A DNA stretch of 64,000 nucleotides from Physcia stellaris (Eukaryota; Ascomycota; Lecanoromycetes; Caliciales; Physciaceae). The notes under the pieces were generated by a model, which saw only the letters and a list, made by a program, of their open reading frames with translations, was not told the origin of the DNA and made no database searches. Shown one piece after another: positions 1-11,880 of the stretch. Location: positions 1-64,000 of the forward strand of contig JABSSW010000067.1 of the NCBI GenBank assembly GCA_018902385.1, in the 5' to 3' direction. The translations under genes and the position numbers were made by a program. Each line of letters opens with the position of its first letter. The first letter of the stretch is position 1.

Positions 1-1149
1 TTTGACGAGATAATGTTTCTTTTTCATCGATTCAGAACTTTTCTGTCTTTTTTGAAATTGATGACGAATTTGAATAAAACTTAAAACGTTGACGATGTTC
101 GAAACAATTGAACAATTTACAAAATCGTTTCAAATAAATCATCGTAATTTCATTTGAAAATGTTTGTTCACGTTTACATCAAAATTTCATGTACGTTTTC
201 AAAAATTCGCGAACGTTGACTCTTTATTCGAATACTATCGAAAATTTTTTTCAATCGTTTTTTCAAATTTTCGATAGAAAACAAGATGCAAAAAATCTAA
301 CGACTGCAACAAATTGATTGAAAGTTCACAATCGATTTTTGAAAAATTATATCGTTTTCGTCATCGACATTCTCATTGTGAAATTTTCGATTTTCGAAAT
401 TTTCGATTCAAATGAAAAAAAATCATATCACAAATTTCGATTTTATCGTGATTGTCGATCAATATGATTCGAAAACACACGACGAAAATTTTCGTTTCAA
501 TCGATTTTTTGAAAACAAAACGATCAACGAGAATCGTTGATATTTCAAAAATGATAAAATTTGAAAATTAGAATATTCTCTTGACTATATCTCTATGAAA
601 TCGAACATTTTCGTAAAAAAAAATTTTTATTTCAAAACTTTTTTCAAAAACGCACAGTACAAGCTGAATTGAAACGTTTCGCATTTTCGTGACGATCATT
701 ATTGAGCAACATGAATGTACATGAAAATCGAATCATTTCGCATCTTTCAAAACACAAATAAATTGATGATCGAACGAAAAAAGCGTCAAATGATCGAACG
801 TTTTGCGACAACGAAATTGATCAAACAAAACGTTTATGAATTTCACACGATTATCAACGAAAATTTAACGATCATCGTTTCAACTCAATTGCGAATCGAT
901 TCTACTTATTGAATACAAATTGAACAGAAAATCAACATCATCATGAAAGCAACATGTCGATCTCATTTGTTTTTCACGACGATATTTTTCGAAAAATAAT
1001 TTGAATACGTCGAAATTTTTGCAAACACAAACAATCGCGACATCATTTCGAATAATCGATTTTGAAAAACTGTAATATATTATCATTCTCGATGAAAAAC
1101 ATTTAAGACTCATTTTTTGCGAAATTCGAAAATATTCGATTTCGAAAAG

Positions 1150-3790
1150 CTGAAAAAAATGATGAAACGAATGAAATTTCAATTAAGAAAAATCATTCAC
1201 ACTCATGTTCTGTTTTGAATTCAGAAATTCATATTCGAAATGATCGTCGAAAATTTCATACGAGCAAATGTTTTCGATAAAAAAAAAAAATCCGAATTAC
1301 ACGTTTTAGTCACGAAACATCAAATTCACACATGTCGTTCAAATATGTGCCGAAAAAAATTGATCATCGAGTCACGATGTAAAAATGATTTTTTTCAATC
1401 ATTGTCGCTCGTGACTGAAATCGTGAACGACGACAATCGTTACATTTACAAACGACTGAAAAAAAAAAATCGTTGAATGTTTTCATATAACGCTCAAATG
1501 CTTTTGATTTGAAACGCACATATGAATATTCAATACATCATCGGAATTTATTTTGCCGTCTATGTCAGCAAATACGTTATCAAAACGAAATCAAACGAAA
1601 TGTACAATTTGTTCACTCGTAACGTCGTCAAAAATCATCTAATGACTCGTAAAATAAAATCAATGAAAATGATGATATTAATGTTGAATTACGACATGTT
1701 TCGATGCAACAAAATTGTAATGTATATCGATATCACGTTGTTTGAAAAACGATCGATTTTCGTCAAATTTTTCTGACAGTTAAAGCGAGATTTACTCGAG
1801 CAAAAAATAAAAAAAAACGAAAAATCTGATTTTTTTTACAAGAATCAAGTCGAAAAATATTTTGTTCGTTTTTCAAATTCGTTTTTCGATCAATTGACGT
1901 ATTTCGACTATCACGCGCAATACAATCTGACTAAATCAATCGTTAATCTTGAACGTGAAACGATGAATGATGTGAAAAACGTTGTCAAAAAAAAAAAACA
2001 AATATGATATTCTCATTGAAAATCGTCTTTTACATCGATTAACGTATTCAAAACATTTTGATTCGAAACATCGAACGACGTTTGATCGACGAGAAAACGT
2101 TCTTTTACGAAAAATTTCTCATGATTGAATCGTGACGAACTGAAAAAAAAATTCGAAAATTCATATCAAATTTCACGATCATCTGTTATCGAAATCATTT
2201 CATGATGTTTTATTCAGACGAATATCGAGACTTGAATTTTTGAACAACATCTCAAATCGTCAAACGTGACGTAAAAGTCAACATTCTTTATTTGAAAACA
2301 ATTCATCGTTTGTTTTTTGAAATACTCGAAGTCGAAAATGAATGCATACGACAAAAATTTTTTGAAATGCAAATCAAAATTCGATCGATTTCAATGCTCG
2401 ACGACAATCTAAATTTCGAAAAAATCAATATGTGACGTATCAACGAATCATAAACAATTTCTTTTTTGTCACAGTTCGAAAATCACGAAAAACAAACTTC
2501 TTCGTCACAAATTCAGAAAAAACAAAAAAATTCTTTCTATTGCACACGTTCGTGACGTGATGCAATGATCATCGATTAATGATTTTGAAAATGATTTTCA
2601 TCGAAATTGCTACAGAAAACGTGAAAAAAAAAAAATCATTCACAGCAATTTGCACATCAATATTCAAAAAAATTCAAATCATGAATCATTGCAATTCAAT
2701 ATATTTCGCATCGAAAACTCAATAGACGATTTCAAAAAAATCAAAATTTTTATCATTGATGAAATCTTCATGATCAACAATGAAATGCTCAACTTTGTTT
2801 CGAAATTGTTTGTCAAAATACACAAAAATGCGTTTTTTTTTGAAAATTTTCATGTTATTGTGTTTGACGATTTATTGCAACTATTTCCAATTAACGATCG
2901 TCAAATTTTTCATTTTTTTGTTTGAAAAATTTTCGTCTCGTTATTTTTGAGACGTTTCAAAAGACACGATAGCGATTCAAAATTCGAACGATTTCTTGAA
3001 ATTGTTCGTTTTGAAAAAATCATTGATAAAATCATGAATATTTTTCATCAACGAGAACAGAAATTTCGAATCGATGATTTTATTCATAAATGTATTTCGT
3101 TTCATTTTCGAAAAAATGAAATGTTACGATTCAACGCGCTATTGCTGAAACGAGTTTGCAATTCATCTGTTATCGTTCACAAAGTTCAAAATAAAAAACG
3201 CGACAGAAAGTTGCTCGAATCGATTCACAAATATTTTGTCAAAAAAAGCAATTTGCTCAATGAAATGATGATCGTTTCTGAAATTCGAATGATGTTTTTG
3301 AAAAATAATTGCATAACTCGAGACATAATCAACGACAATTGTGAACTAATCATCAAAATAAATGACAGAGATTATTTTATCGTGATCTTTTCAATGATCG
3401 AACGTATAAAAATTAAATTTTTCTCATATTCGTTACAACGTGACTGATATCAATTCTCTAGAAATTTTATGTGATTTTTTACATCGATTACAAGACGTTG
3501 TATGATGTGTTTTACATTCGAATTCAATTTTCAATTTTGAACGCTTTCGCTTTGATCGTTTATAAAATTCAATCATTAACAATGATCGACATATCGATAA
3601 ATCTTGATAATAGTATGTTCGTTTCAAAACATGCATACATCGCATTGAGTAGAACGCAACGATGAAATCAAATTTTCATTTCTGCTTTGTGCAAAGAAAC
3701 TTTTCGAATGAATCAACAAACGATAATCGAATATGAACGTTTAAAAAGTATTGTCAATAAAATGTATAAAATTGAAATTAACGTGTTCGA
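1150..3790 (+). pseudogene. Helitron Rep/PIF1-like helicase, decayed
   Basis: This is a relic of the rolling-circle transposase-helicase of a fungal Helitron. In one frame from about 1150 to 3447 I read an HUH-type motif (HTH, 1198-1206, within IIHTHVLF), the block LVTKHQIHTC near 1300, the two-tyrosine motif YVSKYVIK near 1573, helicase motif II in IFIIDEIFMINNEM near 2750, and LEIVRFEKI near 3000. The C-terminal part (AFALIVYKIQSLT and KHAYIALSRTQR, 3540-3665) lies in another frame and continues to EYERLKSIVNKMYKI near 3780. At least four stops, all TGA (1213, 1474, 1510, 2923), and a fifth at 3663 fall where family members have Trp. The Walker A motif and part of the Rep N-terminus are not recognisable. 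The long frame with few indels but many transitions points to mutational silencing of a once intact copy. Confidence 0.8.
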
Positions 3791-4981
3791 TTGACAATCT
3801 CATCGAATTTTTTTCGTTTTTTTCAGACACGAATCGTTATGATTTTTCTTGTCGCACGTCGTGTCTGTTACATTTCTTGACTTTGTTTTCAGAATTTGAT
3901 CATGTCATTAGTACGAAAAGTATCTAAATTGTGCGAATTTTTCAAAATTAAATCTATGATCGTGATCGAGAATTGAATGTGATCAAACAAATTCGTCGTA
4001 AAACAATTCGAGCTTGAATATTTCAATTTTCTTTAAAATATGTGTATTAATGAAATTTATTCAAATCGTGTGCAATTGTTTTACTCTTTATCATTACAAA
4101 TATTTTCAGCGAACATATTTCGATTTCCATGAACTTCTATACGAAAAAGTTATAGACAATGTGTCAATTTCAATTTTTGAATGCAAATACAGAATGCTCA
4201 AATATTTCGCTCAAATTGCTGTGAATTGAGATGAATATGTTTTTCAAACAAAGCATACTTTTTCTTTATTTTTATGCGATAGTCACGTTCTGAAACTCTG
4301 CATGTAAAATGTTTAAATCTCATTGTGATTATTCTAAATCTCAATACTATCATTATTTTTTTTGAAATCGAATTTGTACGATTGCAATAAATTATCAAAA
4401 CGAATCATAAATTTAACGTATGTAAAATTAATTTCATTGAGTTTCGAATAAAACGATTTTTTCTCATCGTATTGTGATTGAAAATAAATTTTCGATTGTT
4501 TGTGTTGTTCGTATTCATTCGATCAATGATTCATTAACGTGTTTTCACGATCACATTTGATTGCAATTTTGCTTTTTTTCTTTTTTTTTTCTTCATGCAT
4601 CACGATGTTTAGTCAAGCGAAACTCTGAGTCATCTGTAAATTGTATTTCTGTCTAAACTATGAGATGTATGCTAATTGAATCAATGAATCACAATGAAAC
4701 AGCAATTTTCGTCAATATTGCACAGATAAATAAATAGAATGAAAATCAGAAAACACAATTTGACAGAAAAATAGTTCAAATTTCGTCTTTTTCATTTCGA
4801 TCGCTCTCAATTAGTCAATCTTTATGACACGCGTTCGATGATTTTACATTTTGCGAATCGAATATTCGTCGACTTGACGCATTTTCAGCAATTGCAAACG
4901 TTGATCATTCAAATACGCGAATCTATTTGAGTTTCGAAAAATCACTGTTTTGACATCAAGAAAATCGTTGAAAATTCAACA

Positions 4982-5624
4982 TTGTCGTTTTGCGATCGAT
5001 GCGCGACAACGAGAAAAAACAAAATCAATCTCGTTTTTTCTCGATGCGTTCAAGCACGAAATCGTTTCGAAATTTGCGAAAATTGCATATTCAAACACAA
5101 AACATCGAATTGTTCATTCAATAAATGCATTCAATTTTCAATGTTTCAAATATTAAATTTTTTTCAAATTCGATGCGTGTTCAATTCGAAATCGTGAAAA
5201 TGATGTTTCAAATCATCGTCACAAACGTAAAATTCGTTGACGAAAAAAAAAAATTAAAATTTCGATCAAAAATGATAAAAATCATTTTGTCGCAAATTTG
5301 TTTTTTTCGCGACGATCATCGAACAAACGTCGTCGATTGTTGTTTTCAACAACGATCACGACAAATGATCGTGCGCGATTCAATGAAAACGACAACAACG
5401 ACGAGTCATTAAATAATCGTTCGAACGTCGTCGACGATTTATCATTGTTTCTGTCTCAAAACGAAAAAAAGAACGAGAACGAGAATTTTCAATTTGAGCA
5501 ACATCATGACGATTACGACGACGAATTCGATTTCGATTTCGAGTTTGCGTCAAATGATGTTGTTTTTATCATTGAAAAAACAAAATCGACAAAAACATTT
5601 TTTTCAAAACGAAATAAATTTTGA
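4982..5624 (+). pseudogene. Possible Cys-rich (zinc-finger-like) ORF fragment in the AT-rich block
   Basis: At 4982-5197 the frame reads a regular cysteine pattern: FCDRCATTRKN, then SRCVQARNRFEICENC, then TSNCSF. The spacing C-x2-C ... C-x9-C-x2-C ... C resembles the short fungal element-borne zinc-binding domain of the type CxxC...CxxC...C. A second frame at 5298-5624 encodes a very acidic, Asp/Asn/Glu-rich stretch that could be a later part of the same protein. It lies about 1.2 kb past the Helitron helicase relic on the same strand, so it may be an accessory or captured ORF. The family is not identified, and composition bias could mimic the pattern. Confidence 0.3.
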
Positions 5625-6380
5625 GTTTCAATTTCACGACGATCAATCGTCGTAAAAAAAAGTTTATTTTCGCTTTTTGCGTGTTTTCGACTCGAATGAT
5701 GTCGTAAAATTTACGCGACGTCGAGTCGAACTGTGACGAGAAACAAAACGAAAAAAAAAAAGAAAAATGAAAAAAAAAAAAAAAAAAACGAAATGAAGAA
5801 ATAGAGATGCGCAATGAAAACATAAAGTCATGTTATGAGAATTTTTGTATTGAAAAACGACTTCATTGCAAAAATCGTTATATACGATGCTGCAAAAAGA
5901 TTTCAACAATTCTTGAAAAATGTATTTTAATTTTTTTTGTCATAGTCAGTTTCATTGTCTGTTTTTTTCTTTTGTTTTTTGCAAAGTTCGTCGAATTGAT
6001 ACGAATGAACATTTTGATTCATTGATTCAACGAAAACAAAATCTCGTTTCTTGAAAATCAATTGATTTTATCAAACAAATGTTTTCACAAAATCATGATT
6101 AGACACAAAAATCCGATGAAATGATTTCTATTGTACATATTTTTCGCTTTTAATTTTTGAGCTAATCACATTTCAACGAACTTTTAATCAACACGAATGA
6201 ATTGTACGAATACTTTTTTTTTTCACTGTAACAATCGTTGACTCAAACGTTATAATTGATGCACGTCAATTGCGATCAAAATGCTTTTCTCATTCATTTT
6301 GCTTCAAATCATGATGTTGATAGAGTGAAGTTGATGCAGAAATCGGCATGAACTAACTTTGTTCCGAATTCAACTTTATG

Positions 6381-6392
6381 AACCCTAACCCT
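6381..6392 (+). repeat. Two-unit telomere-like repeat AACCCTAACCCT
   Basis: Two direct copies of AACCCT, the complement of the fungal telomere unit TTAGGG, lie within about 50 bases of the boundary between the AT-rich block and normal sequence. Two units may be coincidence. Confidence 0.5.
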
Positions 6393-6957
6393 TTGCTTTC
6401 CCTCCTTAGAACGCTGTTGCATATTCAACGGCAATGTCTTATCCTTCCGGCGGCTCCAGCTCTAGATCTATGCTCTGTGAAGATTCTTCAAAGTAGCAAC
6501 TATGATAGAAGCGGCTCGCATATCAGAAATAGCTTTGTTCAAGACGTCGACTTCGGTGTCGCGAAATCCTTCGTTGTGCTATGAAGGATTATAAAGTCCG
6601 AAGGATGCCTTCTGCATGTGCAGAACTGCCACTCCCGGGCTTGATCAACAACAAGTCAAATGTACTCTTCCCATAAGAGGACTGCTGAACCAATCCTTGT
6701 TCTAACAATGTTCTTAATCTGACATTTCTGGTCTATCTCAATGGCAGAAAACTCCTGCAAGTTCAAAAGGCCAGTTGCAGGGAGGGTTGGCGACACTCTC
6801 GCTCTACCTAATCACACGAGATTCGTTCAATTACTGAAGTTTTGGGACACTGATGTAATCACATACGTAGTCAAGCAATGATCATACTTGGTCAACGCAA
6901 ATTAAGGTCGGGGACGTAATTCTGCAGCATATCAACCACAGTCCTACCTCTACTTTA

Positions 6958-9900
6958 ATGGCAGCAACAGCTCTCCTGCTAGTATGGATCCTGCATTGTC
7001 TACTTGCACACGCCAGCTTCCATTCGTCGCCAAGATACCTGAATACCACATGGGGTAGACCTGCAGATAGTGCAACCAGGCACATTGCGAGTGCTTTGTC
7101 GTCTAGAGTGGACTTGAGCCCGACGCACAGTTCAACCCCGGTGCAGGCTCTTGCACATAGCTTGGCGGAGAATTCTATCACAGACCCTCACCCGAGAGTT
7201 TCGAGTGTTTCCTTCTCGGACTCGCTATTTGGAACTGCGCAGACTCATGGATCAGCAACTCCCTCGTCAACGAAAGCCTCTGCAAGTAGGTATATTGGAT
7301 TAATGGCCGATTTTGAGGGGTTTCCAGCTACAGCTCCTCTTACTGCGTCAGCAGAAGCTCTCACCACAAAAGACCTCCAAAGCCTGAATAGCTCTGCGGC
7401 CAGTACTGTGCGATCGACGAGTGCTTCGCACATTGAATGGAGTCCGGTATACGCCATTGCCACCGTCTCTCCAATAAAAAGCGGTAATACTACTAACTCC
7501 TCCACTGTCCGTTTGGCTGGCAATGTTGGAATTAGTACCTCCAATGCCACTAAGCAGTTGAGTCCATCTTTAGCGTCGGCAACGCCGTTTAGGTTCTTCA
7601 ATTTCACTCCCCATTGGAATTCAAGCCTCGGCACCCATATAACTGCATCCCAAGGTACAAGCTGGAGTCTATCGAGCAGTAAGTCTGGTGAGGTAACAGT
7701 AGTTCTAAATGTAGATACTGATTAGAATCCGTAGATGGTACAAATGTTACAACTACCATCCATCAGACATCCTCTAGCTTAGGAGATTTCTTGAGGCAGA
7801 TGCCAAATCTCAGCCGCACCAATGGATCTTTGGCAACATGGTGTGCATCAAGCATCTTCGAACTGTATCGGAATTTTACTCAAGAGCCGATTGTGTCGAC
7901 ACCTGTAACAAGAACATACACCCATGTTGAGACAAAAACGGCCGATACCACCATCATAACGACAACGACCAGGATGGACTTGAGAAATTTCGAGGTTAAT
8001 TGGGAACCACCTTGTTGTGGCGACTGTGCTTTTGCAATGGGTGGGAAAGCTCATTTGGTCTACTGGCCTACCTCAGAGCCAAAAAACAATGTATCGAGGA
8101 TTGTTGAACCTAATGGATATGTGTAGTATGCTCTTTATCCCTCCTAACTCTGGAGAGAGATCTAATTGACTTTAATCCAGCGTTTCTCCGAGTGTATATG
8201 TCCTCTATGAAGAAATAACTGCAAACAACCGTTGTGGGCTTTTGGGACCTCCAATGACTGGTGTGACTGTACCTTTTGACGCAACTCAGCTCAGCACGAC
8301 CGGTGCCGATGATATTGAAAGTCAAATGAACTTTGATGATCTAAGCGGCTGTGATCCTGATTTGACCACCTTCACGGGGACATCTACAAATGTGTGGGGA
8401 CATATAATACCTGAGCGTTGCCTACCATCGCTCGCTTGGGATCCAGATGATTGGAATATCACTGAGATCAATCCTCTTTGGACGACGTGCGTACCGATTG
8501 GTGGTGTAGTTTTTGATCCTCCGCGGGTGTTAACGCCTGTTGATGCACTGTCGCCTCGAACTACAGCCAGCAGCCCCCAAGAAACTATACCTCCCTCACC
8601 AGGCTCAGGAGTAGATCCTGTGCCTTCAATTACCGCTTCTACGACGAAAGCAGCTGACCCAACAACAATAGCTATTGTATCTTCAAGTAAACCAGATCTA
8701 TCGGATCCTCCTGTCGACCTAGGACCGCTGTGGATTCCCCAAGTAGGGCCTAAAACGGACGATAGGGACTCATCGACTAGAAGAGCCGTCGATCCAAATA
8801 TCGGACCGTCATCAAAGACAACTCGCGTAGCTCCAACTATGAACTTAGGTATTCCGTGGCAGCCTCTGCCGCAGCCTGGACCTGCACCAGGAAAGCCTAC
8901 AAACAGTGCAAACCTCCCTCAAGACGTATCTAAATCTAATGCACGGACTACTGTAAACCCAGTGCCTACACAGGATTCGAATCAGGGTGGACTTGGCGGA
9001 GCACAGAGTTTCGACCAGGGAGGTGACTCAGAGCGAAGCCGTAACCCAGGGCAAGATAACAATCCTACGAGAATCATAATAGCTAGTCAGAATGATGGTC
9101 CGACGGCACAACCCGAAGGCAACAGTCAAGGAGCTCGCAATTCTCCGCTTGTAGCTAACCCTACTGTAGCACAAGCTGCTTTCCCTGATATCGGGGCAAA
9201 GCCAACACTAAAAACTGCTCCGACACAGAAACCTGGCAGCAGCGTCGATGGCCCAGGGAATCCTCGTCTTGAAGGAAATATCCCACAAATCAACCAGCCC
9301 AACCAACCCAATGGCCCCAATGTCAATGACAACCCGAACGAGAATAACCAGCCTGGAATAAACCTACCAAATCCAACTCGGGGCAGTGATCCCGGTCAGG
9401 CATTGAGCATCCAGCCAAACGGTGACCCCAGCCAACAACAAGCTTCCACTCAAGAATCTGGCGCCGGTCAAGCACAGAACGTTGAGCAAGCTGGCACTTC
9501 GAATCAAGGGCAAGGAGAGACTAGTGCCGATGATATTGGCCAGCCAGCGACTTCAGATGGGGTTTCCGGCGTAGGTGGAATTGCCGATTCCGCCGAAAAC
9601 TCTGAAATGGCATCAAGTTCTTCTACGCCTAATCCGCAAGCACCAGCAGGCAATCAGCCGAACAATAATGGTCCTGAAACCGGTCAACTAACACCTCAAG
9701 GGCCGGATCCCCAGGCAGTTGTTGTGGATGGCAGTACCCTCACGAACAACGGAGCTCCGATCACCATTTCCGGGAAACCAGTAGCATTCTCATCAGGCGT
9801 TATCCGCGTAGGCGATGAACAGGAACACATCCCTGCTTTCCCACACGCACAGGACCCCGGCTTCAATTCTTTTAATGCAGCTGGGCTGACCTTCAACCCT

Positions 9901-11880
9901 GTACCGTCTCTAGAGCCAGGGGTCACCCGGCCGATGCTCGAAGTGCAGGGACAAACACTAACAGATAGTGGACCTGTTATCCAAATTGGTGGTCAAGATA
10001 TCAGACTAGCTTCAGGGGCCGTACACATTGCCACTAGTATCGTTTCTGTGCCTCCACCTCAGACTCATGCCCCCTCTCCTGTGGTTGTAGGCGGGTTTAC
10101 GTTCTTAACACTGCCAAATACAGCTACGGCATCCAGGATTTCCCCACTCATCGTGGCTGGGCAGACTGCTCGGCTCGAGAACGATGGATTACATATTGGT
10201 AGTCAAACTCTCAAGCCTGGCGCTTCACCGATCGAGGTTGGTGGAATCCCCGTATCTCTGGGATCATCACTTCTTGTAGTTGGAAGTAGCACTCGTTCTT
10301 TTCCTGCTACTACCGCAAAAACAATGGATACAATAGTTGGTACGGTAGGCGGCGTACCCATCCAAGCGGTAGATGCGGGTGTCATGCTAGGCAGCAACAC
10401 TCTCACTCCTGGTCTTGCAACCACCATATCAGGTACGCCTGTATCTCTTGGCAGCATCAATAATCTTGTGATCGGAGGTAACACCATTGATGTCCCACGC
10501 TCTACGCCGATAGCAAATCCGAATATTGCTACAGTCGCAGGTCTACCAGTTCGAGTTGTCGAGTCAGGAGTCCGAATCGGCTCGTCGAGTCTTGCTCCAG
10601 GTGCGGTAGCGACCATATCTGGTACTCCAGTCTCGCTGGGTGCGAGTAATGATCTGGTCATTGGGAGTAGTACGGTCCGAATTACATCCCTGATCTCCGA
10701 GACAACAAACCTTCCCATCATCACGATAGCGTCTCAGCCAATCGTAGCGCTTCCATCGGGGTCAGGCGTCCATGTCGGTAGCAGTGTTTTAGCCCCAGGT
10801 AGTGCAGTAACCGTTTCAGGGACGCCTATCTCGCTCGGAAGCAGCGACAACCTGGTCATCGGAGGTAGCACGCTGACATTCTCAGCACCTGCTGCCATTC
10901 CAACAGCTCTTTCCACGCTTATCGCGAACGTGGGCTCTCAATCGATCTTTGCTCTTCCGTCAGGCTCTGGTGTCCGTATTGGCAGCAGTACTCTGCTAGT
11001 CGGCAACGCCGTGACAGTATCAGGAACACCCATGTCGCTGGGAAGCAGCAACCATCTCGTGATTGGTAGTAGTACCCTGACGTTCTCTCTGCCTACTGCT
11101 ACACCAGCATTCCTTCCCTCACCTATCGCCACGGTAGCATCCCAACCTATCTTTGCTCTCCCTTCTAACTTAGGCATACGAGTCGGTACCACGACCCAGA
11201 TGCCCGGCGCAGCATTCACGATATCTGGGACTCCCATTACCGTAGGCAGTAGCAATCTCGTGATCGGAAGTAGTACACTGACCTTCCCACCATCTGACCC
11301 TACGCCCTACCATCTAACAATAGGCTCCCAAGTCATCACAGAAAACAGCGCATCCCAATTCGTAATAGGCAGCCAGACACTTGCAGCTAGTAGTCCTTTA
11401 ACCATTTCAGGGATAACGTATTCACTCGATCCCTCAGAAACAGCAGTAATCATTAACGGCGTTACAAGCCCCCTTCAACAAGTCCCGACAGACACCGTAA
11501 TCACCCTCGACGGCCAAACCATCACACAAAGCTCAGTCATTGGCTCCAGCACCCACCCTTTCCCTCTCCATTCCCTTCGCTCTCCAACCAGTCCATCTCT
11601 ACACCACCCGCCAAACTCTCCTACAACTAAGCTTTCCACGACAAGCCTAAGCAACTCTATCCCATCAGCCTCAAAGTCTACACAATTAACCTCTCAACCT
11701 CTAATTTACGCTTCCAGCTCCTTCCGACTAACTTCCAGTGGCGCGACCGAAAGCTTCTCTGGTTCAACGTCTTCGGTGACCGACGCGGCTGTTTCGGATG
11801 CCGGTGGGAGGATAAATAGGCTACGTTGGTGGCTGGGGCTGTTGGGACTGTTGCTTGCTGGTGTTGTTGGGATGGGTTGA
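6958..11880 (+). CDS. Secreted, repeat-rich, probably GPI-anchored cell-surface protein
   Basis: Three exons give 1602 residues: 6958-7678, 7735-8122 and 8181-11880. The introns (56 and 58 nt) have GTAAGT...AG and GTAGTA...CCAG borders and keep phase. Residues 1-20 form a signal peptide (MAATALLLVWILHCLLAHAS). The first 500 residues are Ser/Thr-rich with many N-glycosylation sites and one Cys cluster (PPCCGDC). A low-complexity Pro/Asn/Gln/Gly stretch follows. From about 9710 come roughly nine units of 60-65 residues built on a core such as ISGTPVSLGSSNNLVIGSST. The protein ends in a hydrophobic tail (LRWWLGLLGLLLAGVVGMG), as in GPI-anchored wall proteins. Repeats of this kind occur in many hypothetical Pezizomycotina wall proteins; an adhesive or structural role is inference. 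It is the first intact gene beside the AT-rich block. Confidence 0.8.

Follow-up and report, generated by a model that had tools for sequence, protein, structure and literature searches.

Repeat-induced point mutation (RIP) of fungal repeats is described with several dinucleotide preferences. As summarised in PMC5496416, the target order is CpA > CpT > CpG > CpC in Neurospora crassa, and in Trichoderma reesei CpA and CpG are about equal and come before CpT > CpC. According to PMC4352252, ten fungal genomes show CpA, CpT and CpG signatures, those at CpA or CpT being tied to RID; the same source gives CpT a strong part in the RIP of Magnaporthe, Botrytis and Sclerotinia, and in Magnaporthe oryzae and Botrytis T4 it ranks CpT as predominant and CpA as second. 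By the account in PMC7882544, CpT dominates when RIP-capable fungi are aligned, with strongly positive product and substrate indices, which are built on CpA, and PMC2621366 describes CpT as dominant in Neurospora Tad1 with CpA changes alongside. Here we analysed a window of 64,000 nucleotides from the lichen fungus Physcia stellaris (bases 1-64000 of contig JABSSW010000067.1, named C67), which begins inside a copy of a Helitron transposon, and found that this element loses C where the next base is a pyrimidine (CpY), CpC before CpT, and keeps it where the next base is a purine (CpR).

Mutation contexts in the Helitron and a retrotransposon

The genome searched was an assembly of 44.0 Mb in 147 contigs; PMC7513301 describes the P. 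stellaris draft as coming from an ascospore-grown culture, sequenced with Nanopore and polished with Illumina reads. The features at the start of the window are as follows:

1 to 6440, forward strand: Helitron copy, 3' part, the contig starting inside the element; several other copies extend about 1.9 kb further 5', and they end near 6440 (copy alignments)
1 to 6344, no strand assigned: CpY-mutated tract, with CC/GG near-absent, CT/AG depleted, CA/TG and CG kept and TpA not raised (dinucleotide counts, shuffles)
2650 to 2925, forward strand: PIF1-like helicase remnant (PF05970, E 5e-5, 23.4 bits, just below the curated cut-off of 25.9)
2926 to 3447, forward strand: 173-codon open frame directly after the helicase remnant, with no Pro, Gly or Trp; its homologues are 11 database proteins (profile search)
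6345 to 6440, no strand assigned: unmutated element end with intact CCC runs, where copy L022 reads TTC/TTT (copy alignment)
6441 to 7340, no strand assigned: flank past the element, CC/GG normal from the first 100 bases, a sharp edge without spreading (CC/GG counts)

The AT-rich block at 1-6340 has a guanine plus cytosine (GC) fraction of 0.29. Base counts give only six CC (observed/expected 0.04) and one GG (0.01); CT (156, 0.47) and AG (113, 0.35) are depleted and TA is low (279, 0.35), and CG (371, 2.77), CA (440, 1.24) and TG (389, 1.30) are high. An earlier note on this DNA had counted about 17 CG, about 13 TA and no CC or GG in 481-780, figures that prove exact, and had called GG/CC rare through the whole block, which understates the case: CC and GG together number 7, versus 269.5 ± 14.0 (minimum 231) in 1000 base shuffles. 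Outside the block, none of 1146 overlapping 300-base windows has fewer than 15 CC+GG. The tract stops at 6344; its last internal CC lies at 6113, and CC/GG resume at 6345, 6364 and 6383 onward, so that the last 95 bases of the window copy are unmutated, with CCC where L022 has TTC and TTT. The segment 6383-6393, ACCCTAACCC, has a telomere-like look, yet it belongs to the Helitron end that the copies have in common; its equivalent in L022 is ATTCTAATTT.

The element was rightly called a Helitron, whose RepHel protein joins a Helitron_like_N domain to a PIF1-type helicase: a copy of the same family on C18 matches Helitron_like_N (PF14214) above the cut-off (E 1.2e-9), and the PIF1 match of the window falls slightly below its own. 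A DNA search of the assembly found 16 other copies, 15 at 78-96% and one distant, and long stretches of all 16 were used, two of them cut by contig ends. Many align with the window as far as about position 6440. On the 5' side, L020 and 10 other loci have up to 1.9 kb of additional sequence in common, which the window copy loses at the contig start. Copy L027 carries near its 3' end, at the point matching window 6322, an insert of several hundred bases that is itself free of CC/GG. A Helitron_like_N match at C2:1304017-1304595, with a 794-aa open frame without a stop, is not among the DNA-search copies and is apparently an unmutated Helitron.

We aligned the 17 Helitron sequences and counted all ordered pairs of 16, excluding the most distant. 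The share of C read as T was 0.854 for CC (1055/1236) and 0.752 for CT (17500/23274), versus 0.142 for CA (18985/133607) and 0.109 for CG (14209/130019), and C-to-A/G made up 3-6% in all four contexts. These pairwise counts overstate CpC, because few CpC are left. The counts were therefore also polarised on a less mutated, CC-holding stretch of copy L031 against 15 other sequences, giving T at 555 of 595 CC, 846 of 996 CT, 222 of 1894 CA and 197 of 1942 CG; the CA and CG changes are mostly ordinary divergence, since transversions there reach 4-5%. One kilobase of L031 (6501-7500, on C18) lies within this mutated Helitron copy and keeps 20 CC+GG per 500 bases, either by patchy mutation or by later gene conversion.

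A retrotransposon allowed a sharper test. There were 527 candidate reverse-transcriptase matches, 150 were scored, and 10 of these had no stop. Two stop-free copies, L043 (C5:1166000-1167600) and L044 (C12:59800-61400), are 96% alike over 1.6 kb and nearly unmutated, with open frames, normal dinucleotides and GC of 0.50-0.51; they were either recently active or not yet hit. L043 encodes reverse transcriptase and then RNase H, the order of Ty3/gypsy-type retrotransposons, and we class the family as such by this domain order. As a DNA query, L043 gave 40 listed places, itself and L044 included, of 226 candidates, and six mutated copies (L045-L050, ranks 3 to 7 and 9) were compared with the two references at sites where these agree. 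C had become T at 889 of 966 CpC (0.92) and 772 of 1141 CpT (0.68), but at only 38 of 1097 CpA (0.035) and 17 of 1026 CpG (0.017), with C to A or G in at most 0.3%. The CpC rate is 1.7 to 3.3 times the CpT rate, and the CpY/CpR rate ratios for L045-L050 are 92, 90, 104, 96, 55 and 29. The base 5' of the C has no effect for CpC (0.90-0.93) and little for CpT (0.57-0.76), and that of the second 3' base is small (CCC 0.83 to CCA 0.97; CTG 0.61 to CTA 0.75). After a 5' T, too, C is spared when a purine comes next (TCA 7/360, TCG 2/390). All eight sequences hold 61-70 TpA, and with this count unchanged TpA appears depleted as T and A rise.

The six copies also reveal the pace of the mutation. In L045-L050, 63-88% of CpY sites are changed versus 0.1-1.2% of A/T sites, and transversions number 0, 1, 1, 0, 1 and 7 among about 1520 sites where the references agree; in L048, 323 of 369 CpY are changed, with 0 transversions in 1525 sites and one change in 751 A/T sites. 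Five of the six are near-identical to the references outside CpY. Because such heavy CpY change coexists with almost no transversions or A/T changes, the mutation is a burst, not slow decay.

The contexts proposed in the earlier note, C-to-T mainly at CpC and perhaps at CpT with CpA and CpG spared, thus recur in both transposons, CpT (and AG on the other strand) being the second target. No CC/GG-poor copies without C-to-T differences were met among those compared; the copies differ by C-to-T at CpC and CpT, and these two, not CpA, carry the transitions.

Restriction to repeats and footprint in indices and proteins

Five copies with GC-normal 3' flanks (the window copy, L022, L025, L029 and L031) were used as an edge test. 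CC/GG and CT/AG are normal within 100 bases of the element end in four of the five, and in L025 the edge lies within 200 bases and they return to normal within 200-400 bases, with 7 CC/GG and 7 CT/AG per 100 bases at 100-200 bases. Beyond the Helitron, 98 AT-rich windows lie outside its aligned stretch, many of them belonging to the same element through the shared 1.9 kb at the 5' side; a strict set without Helitron similarity comprises 49 of 295 AT-rich 500-base windows. In this strict set, 43 windows have at most three CC+GG, 36 have none, and TpA/ApT exceeds 0.65 in no window. The GC of most mutated windows is 20-35%, with one at 17%. The 207 windows above 40% GC are normal (CC 0.99, GG 1.01), and so, throughout, are four 10-kb stretches taken at arbitrary places (L035-L038). 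The CpY mutation is therefore present in most of the AT-rich DNA sampled, and it affects both a Helitron and a retrotransposon. One region, L024 501-3500 (C137:5500-8499), has a GC of 0.27-0.42 and retains 9-56 CC+GG per 500 bases, unlike most AT-rich DNA sampled.

Since CpY change makes no TpA, the usual RIP indices score the mutated DNA below ordinary DNA. TpA/ApT is 0.44 in the 98 AT-rich windows versus 0.70 in the 207 normal ones, the substrate index is 1.39 versus 1.26, and the composite index is -0.96 (-0.92 in the strict 49) versus -0.56; the 16 Helitron stretches range from -0.75 to -1.04. With a TpA/ApT threshold of at least 0.89, as used in PMC2621366, the mutated DNA would count as unmutated. 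Index-based surveys of fungi seek CpA loss and TpA gain, and a CpY process escapes them, so absence of an index signal need not mean absence of RIP when up to 88% of CpY is mutated in the copies measured. A simple ratio, (CpC+GpG)/(TpC+GpA), tells the two apart, being 0.007 in the block and 0.86 in normal windows.

The stop codons give a genome-wide hint of the same process. The 150 scored reverse-transcriptase matches hold 250 TGA, 33 TAA and 3 TAG, and 19 Helitron_like_N matches hold 31 TGA, 8 TAA and no TAG. CpY change can turn a sense codon into a stop at TGG and nowhere else, the product being TGA; CpA-type RIP would make TAA and TAG. With stops arising nearly only from TGG, and with Gly and Pro codons lost, the elements die more by missense than by nonsense.

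A profile of five mutated open frames, searched against the proteins of public assemblies, found 11 proteins (P0237-P0247; 10 ena, 1 lgn) that match the best P. stellaris copy at 63-96% identity. Their 1947 residues include 0 Pro, 1 Gly and 9 Trp, with Met, His, Gln and Cys kept, and on their sequences they carry the CpY signature in protein form; they are likely false genes, open frames of mutated Helitron DNA. Relatives were probed in this way via proteins alone, with a query free of Gly, Pro and Trp that favours such matches, and open frames inherently retain those Trp codons that escaped becoming stops. Predicted 'proteins' free of Gly and Pro are a footprint that can be searched for in protein databases.

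Elsewhere in the window, an open frame of 1212 codons at 8242-11880 encodes a repeat-rich protein with many copies of a VIGSSTLTF...TISGTPVSLG-like motif, perhaps a surface protein. Rfam searched against the window at gathering thresholds gave no match.

Candidate enzymes and the weighing of explanations

A search of the genome with PF00145 gave four matches, corresponding to three C5-DNA methyltransferase genes, all with open frames or regular introns. The gene on C5 (L041, protein P0001) is RID-like, with the motif PPCQ. The gene on C3 (L040) is DIM-2-like, at E 2e-181 to PDB 9bap and 2.9e-181 to 9baq, entries labelled DNA (cytosine-5-)-methyltransferase that we take to be DIM-2. The third, L039 (C6:790057-794028; gene at about C6:790,900-792,560), has two GT-AG introns and the end motifs, so its two TGA sit in introns. 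Its core shares about 39% identity with the RID-like protein; with DmtA-like proteins the figure is mostly 42-51%. We built a quick tree of 87 catalytic cores, picked from 236 database proteins and the genome's own; its DIM-2 root is very long, and 29 of its 83 inner branches are open. L039 belongs there to a clade of 34 rows (Shimodaira-Hasegawa-like approximate likelihood ratio test 98, stem 0.46), separate from the RID-like proteins of lichens, from their DmtA-like ones (Psora, Lecanora) and from Eurotiomycete DmtA. The RID-like clade presumably contains RID and Masc1, neither of which is in the tree. Physcia and Heterodermia, both Physciaceae, are the only organisms named among the 34 rows of the L039 clade, and Heterodermia is its sole named member within the top 120 of 782 matches. 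The target-recognition region of L039 differs: it reads HPDG or YPDG in the three members compared versus HPSG in nine other sequences, the block before the conserved TI is missing, and two extra residues precede QIGNAVPP.

Judged by sequence, L039 represents a third, divergent lineage of class I whose target-recognition region is altered, and we tentatively name it the likelier source of the CpY specificity, at close to an even chance. The RID-like gene on C5 is the second candidate, a possible source about which we are rather doubtful. A wider proposal, for which we claim somewhat short of an even chance, is that this third lineage may have turned into a mutator that changes C to T in repeats and whose CpY specificity is intrinsic, and that Physciaceae, and perhaps related lichens, may run a RIP invisible to the indices with a target order reversed relative to the published ones.

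Very probably, then, the pattern reflects RIP-type repeat-directed hypermutation with 3'-pyrimidine specificity, CpC > CpT >> CpA, CpG. A genome defence of P. stellaris would recognise repeated DNA and convert C to T on both strands where a pyrimidine lies 3' of the C; it would act before meiosis as in Neurospora, and its catalyst would be a class-I (RID/Masc1-type) C5-DNA methyltransferase. The features of RIP in the general sense are present: C:G goes to T:A with few other changes, in a rapid burst, confined with sharp limits to repeats of more than one transposon kind whose flanks are spared, and the genome holds a methyltransferase gene of the RID/Masc1 class. Those of classical CpA-type RIP are absent, CpA/TpG being undepleted and TpA not raised (CpA 38/1097; TpA/ApT 0.44 vs 0.70), as is the CpG depletion of CpG-type RIP or of methyl-CpG deamination (CpG 17/1026; CG observed/expected 2.77 in the block). 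Simple deamination of methylated CpG, against which the earlier note had argued, is rejected because CpG is the best-kept site. That note had suggested a RIP-like process with another context preference, which we retain; its label 'non-RIP' was too strong, as the testable features are RIP-like except for the target dinucleotide.

Among the other explanations, the nearest is 5-methylcytosine at CpY, deposited as in methylation induced premeiotically (MIP) and then lost by spontaneous deamination, slowly and across many generations. MIP by itself methylates the cytosines of repeats and does not mutate them; here mutation is present. The genome has methyltransferase genes of the DIM-2-like and class-I kinds, and the end product would be identical, but L048, with 323 of 369 CpY changed, no transversion at 1525 sites and a single change at 751 A/T sites, has mutated too fast relative to the background for ordinary decay, and we consider this route improbable. 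A single-strand cytidine deaminase of the APOBEC-like kind would also give C-to-T on both strands of mobile elements. Such enzymes read mainly the 5' neighbour, whereas here the 3' neighbour decides, and Helitron and retrotransposon are hit alike, which makes it very unlikely; PF08210, the sole deaminase family searched, matched neither here nor in control genomes, hence this is no evidence of absence. Lichens are sun-exposed and C-to-T is the ultraviolet (UV) change, yet UV or other dipyrimidine damage is rejected, with next to no probability left to it: TCA (7/360) and TCG (2/390) are spared, CpC is equally changed after A, C, G or T, and the DNA adjoining the repeats is untouched.

Two further readings would dispense with mutation, and both have a negligible chance. 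An assembly or basecalling artefact might be suspected in a Nanopore draft with Illumina polishing (PMC7513301), but the CC/GG loss stops at repeat ends, and the 11 homologous frames described above, with their deficit of Pro, Gly and Trp, come from other sources. A family naturally poor in CC/GG would explain why the 16 other Helitron copies are so over most of their length; against it, the copies differ by C-to-T at CpY, L031 has windows with 20 CC+GG per 500 bases, and the retrotransposon shows the same change from open-frame references, and so natural composition is rejected as well.

Several points weigh against RIP with CpY targets. L043 and L044 are almost unmutated although the strain is ascospore-derived; either the process is not always efficient or both moved after the last cross. 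Of the 52 mutual transitions between them, 37 lie at CpY, where about half would be expected from site counts. The six mutated copies are among the seven closest-ranked of the 38 others listed (226 candidates), so that older copies lie outside the polarised counts. In L050, where transversions are most numerous, 6-7% of CpA and CpG are changed, which leaves room for possible weak CpR activity. Six of the 49 strict AT-rich windows keep 9-28 CC+GG, five at one C137 site and the sixth where L034 begins. With these points counted, the best reading of the pattern is still RIP whose dinucleotide preference is inverted; the signal is real and strong, and the enzyme and the premeiotic timing are the inferred parts.

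Comparison with known systems

As in the RIP of N. crassa and T. reesei, C goes to T on both strands of repeats only, in a genome with class-I (RID/Masc1) and DIM-2-type genes. Unlike there, the order in P. stellaris is CpC > CpT >> CpA, CpG, TpA is not raised and the stops are mostly TGA. The targeting of CpT is shared with the CpT-rich RIP of Magnaporthe, Botrytis, Sclerotinia and Tad1, but CpA changes accompany it there, as PMC4352252 and PMC2621366 describe, whereas P. stellaris spares CpA and takes CpC first. CpT as a target is thus already known; CpC first with CpA spared is what differs.

Other contexts are on record. PMC8959702 describes CpA together with CpC-to-TpT double changes in Monilinia. 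Microbotryum, of the Basidiomycota, has a RIP-like TpCpG mutation, as noted in PMC4352252, and Rhizoctonia solani AG8 is called CpG-biased in PMC4014442, with single nucleotide polymorphisms (SNPs) in genes and repeats alike; a table in that paper gives the highest SNP density to CpC (one per 214 bp), followed by CpG (370), CpA (422) and CpT (491). P. stellaris resembles these two in a RIP-like C-to-T in a non-CpA context and, as far as these accounts go, differs in that CpG is best kept and repeats only are hit. Methylation in Pyricularia is higher at CpA than at CpC or CpT (per PMC7979813), and a k-mer survey of 1,239 fungi states that RIP-like defences share a CpA preference (per PMC12543289). 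In the open-licence PMC literature, so far as its excerpts show, we found no RIP with CpC first and CpA spared; CpA, CpT or CpG are reported there as main targets.

Within the Lecanoromycetes, PMC12542154 describes Cladonia rangiformis, by GC content only, as having ripped and unripped DNA, with RID and DIM-2 homologues and a ripped DNA peak at about 16% GC, and PMC7882544 reports RIP by positive indices in C. metacorallifera and Gyalolechia flavorubescens. P. stellaris is like these three in having ripped beside unripped DNA. The peak in C. rangiformis lies below the 20-35% GC of most P. stellaris mutated windows, and on that lower GC, and on the positive indices of the other two, other contexts are presumably hit in these lichens. 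The CpY mutation is thus probably not general in the Lecanoromycetes, because the indices that report RIP in two of the species cannot report CpY change. If a RID-class system has here changed its target specificity in nature, the candidate sequences can be compared, which makes it directly testable how RID picks its cytosines. The preference of P. stellaris differs from those described for fungal repeat-induced point mutation.

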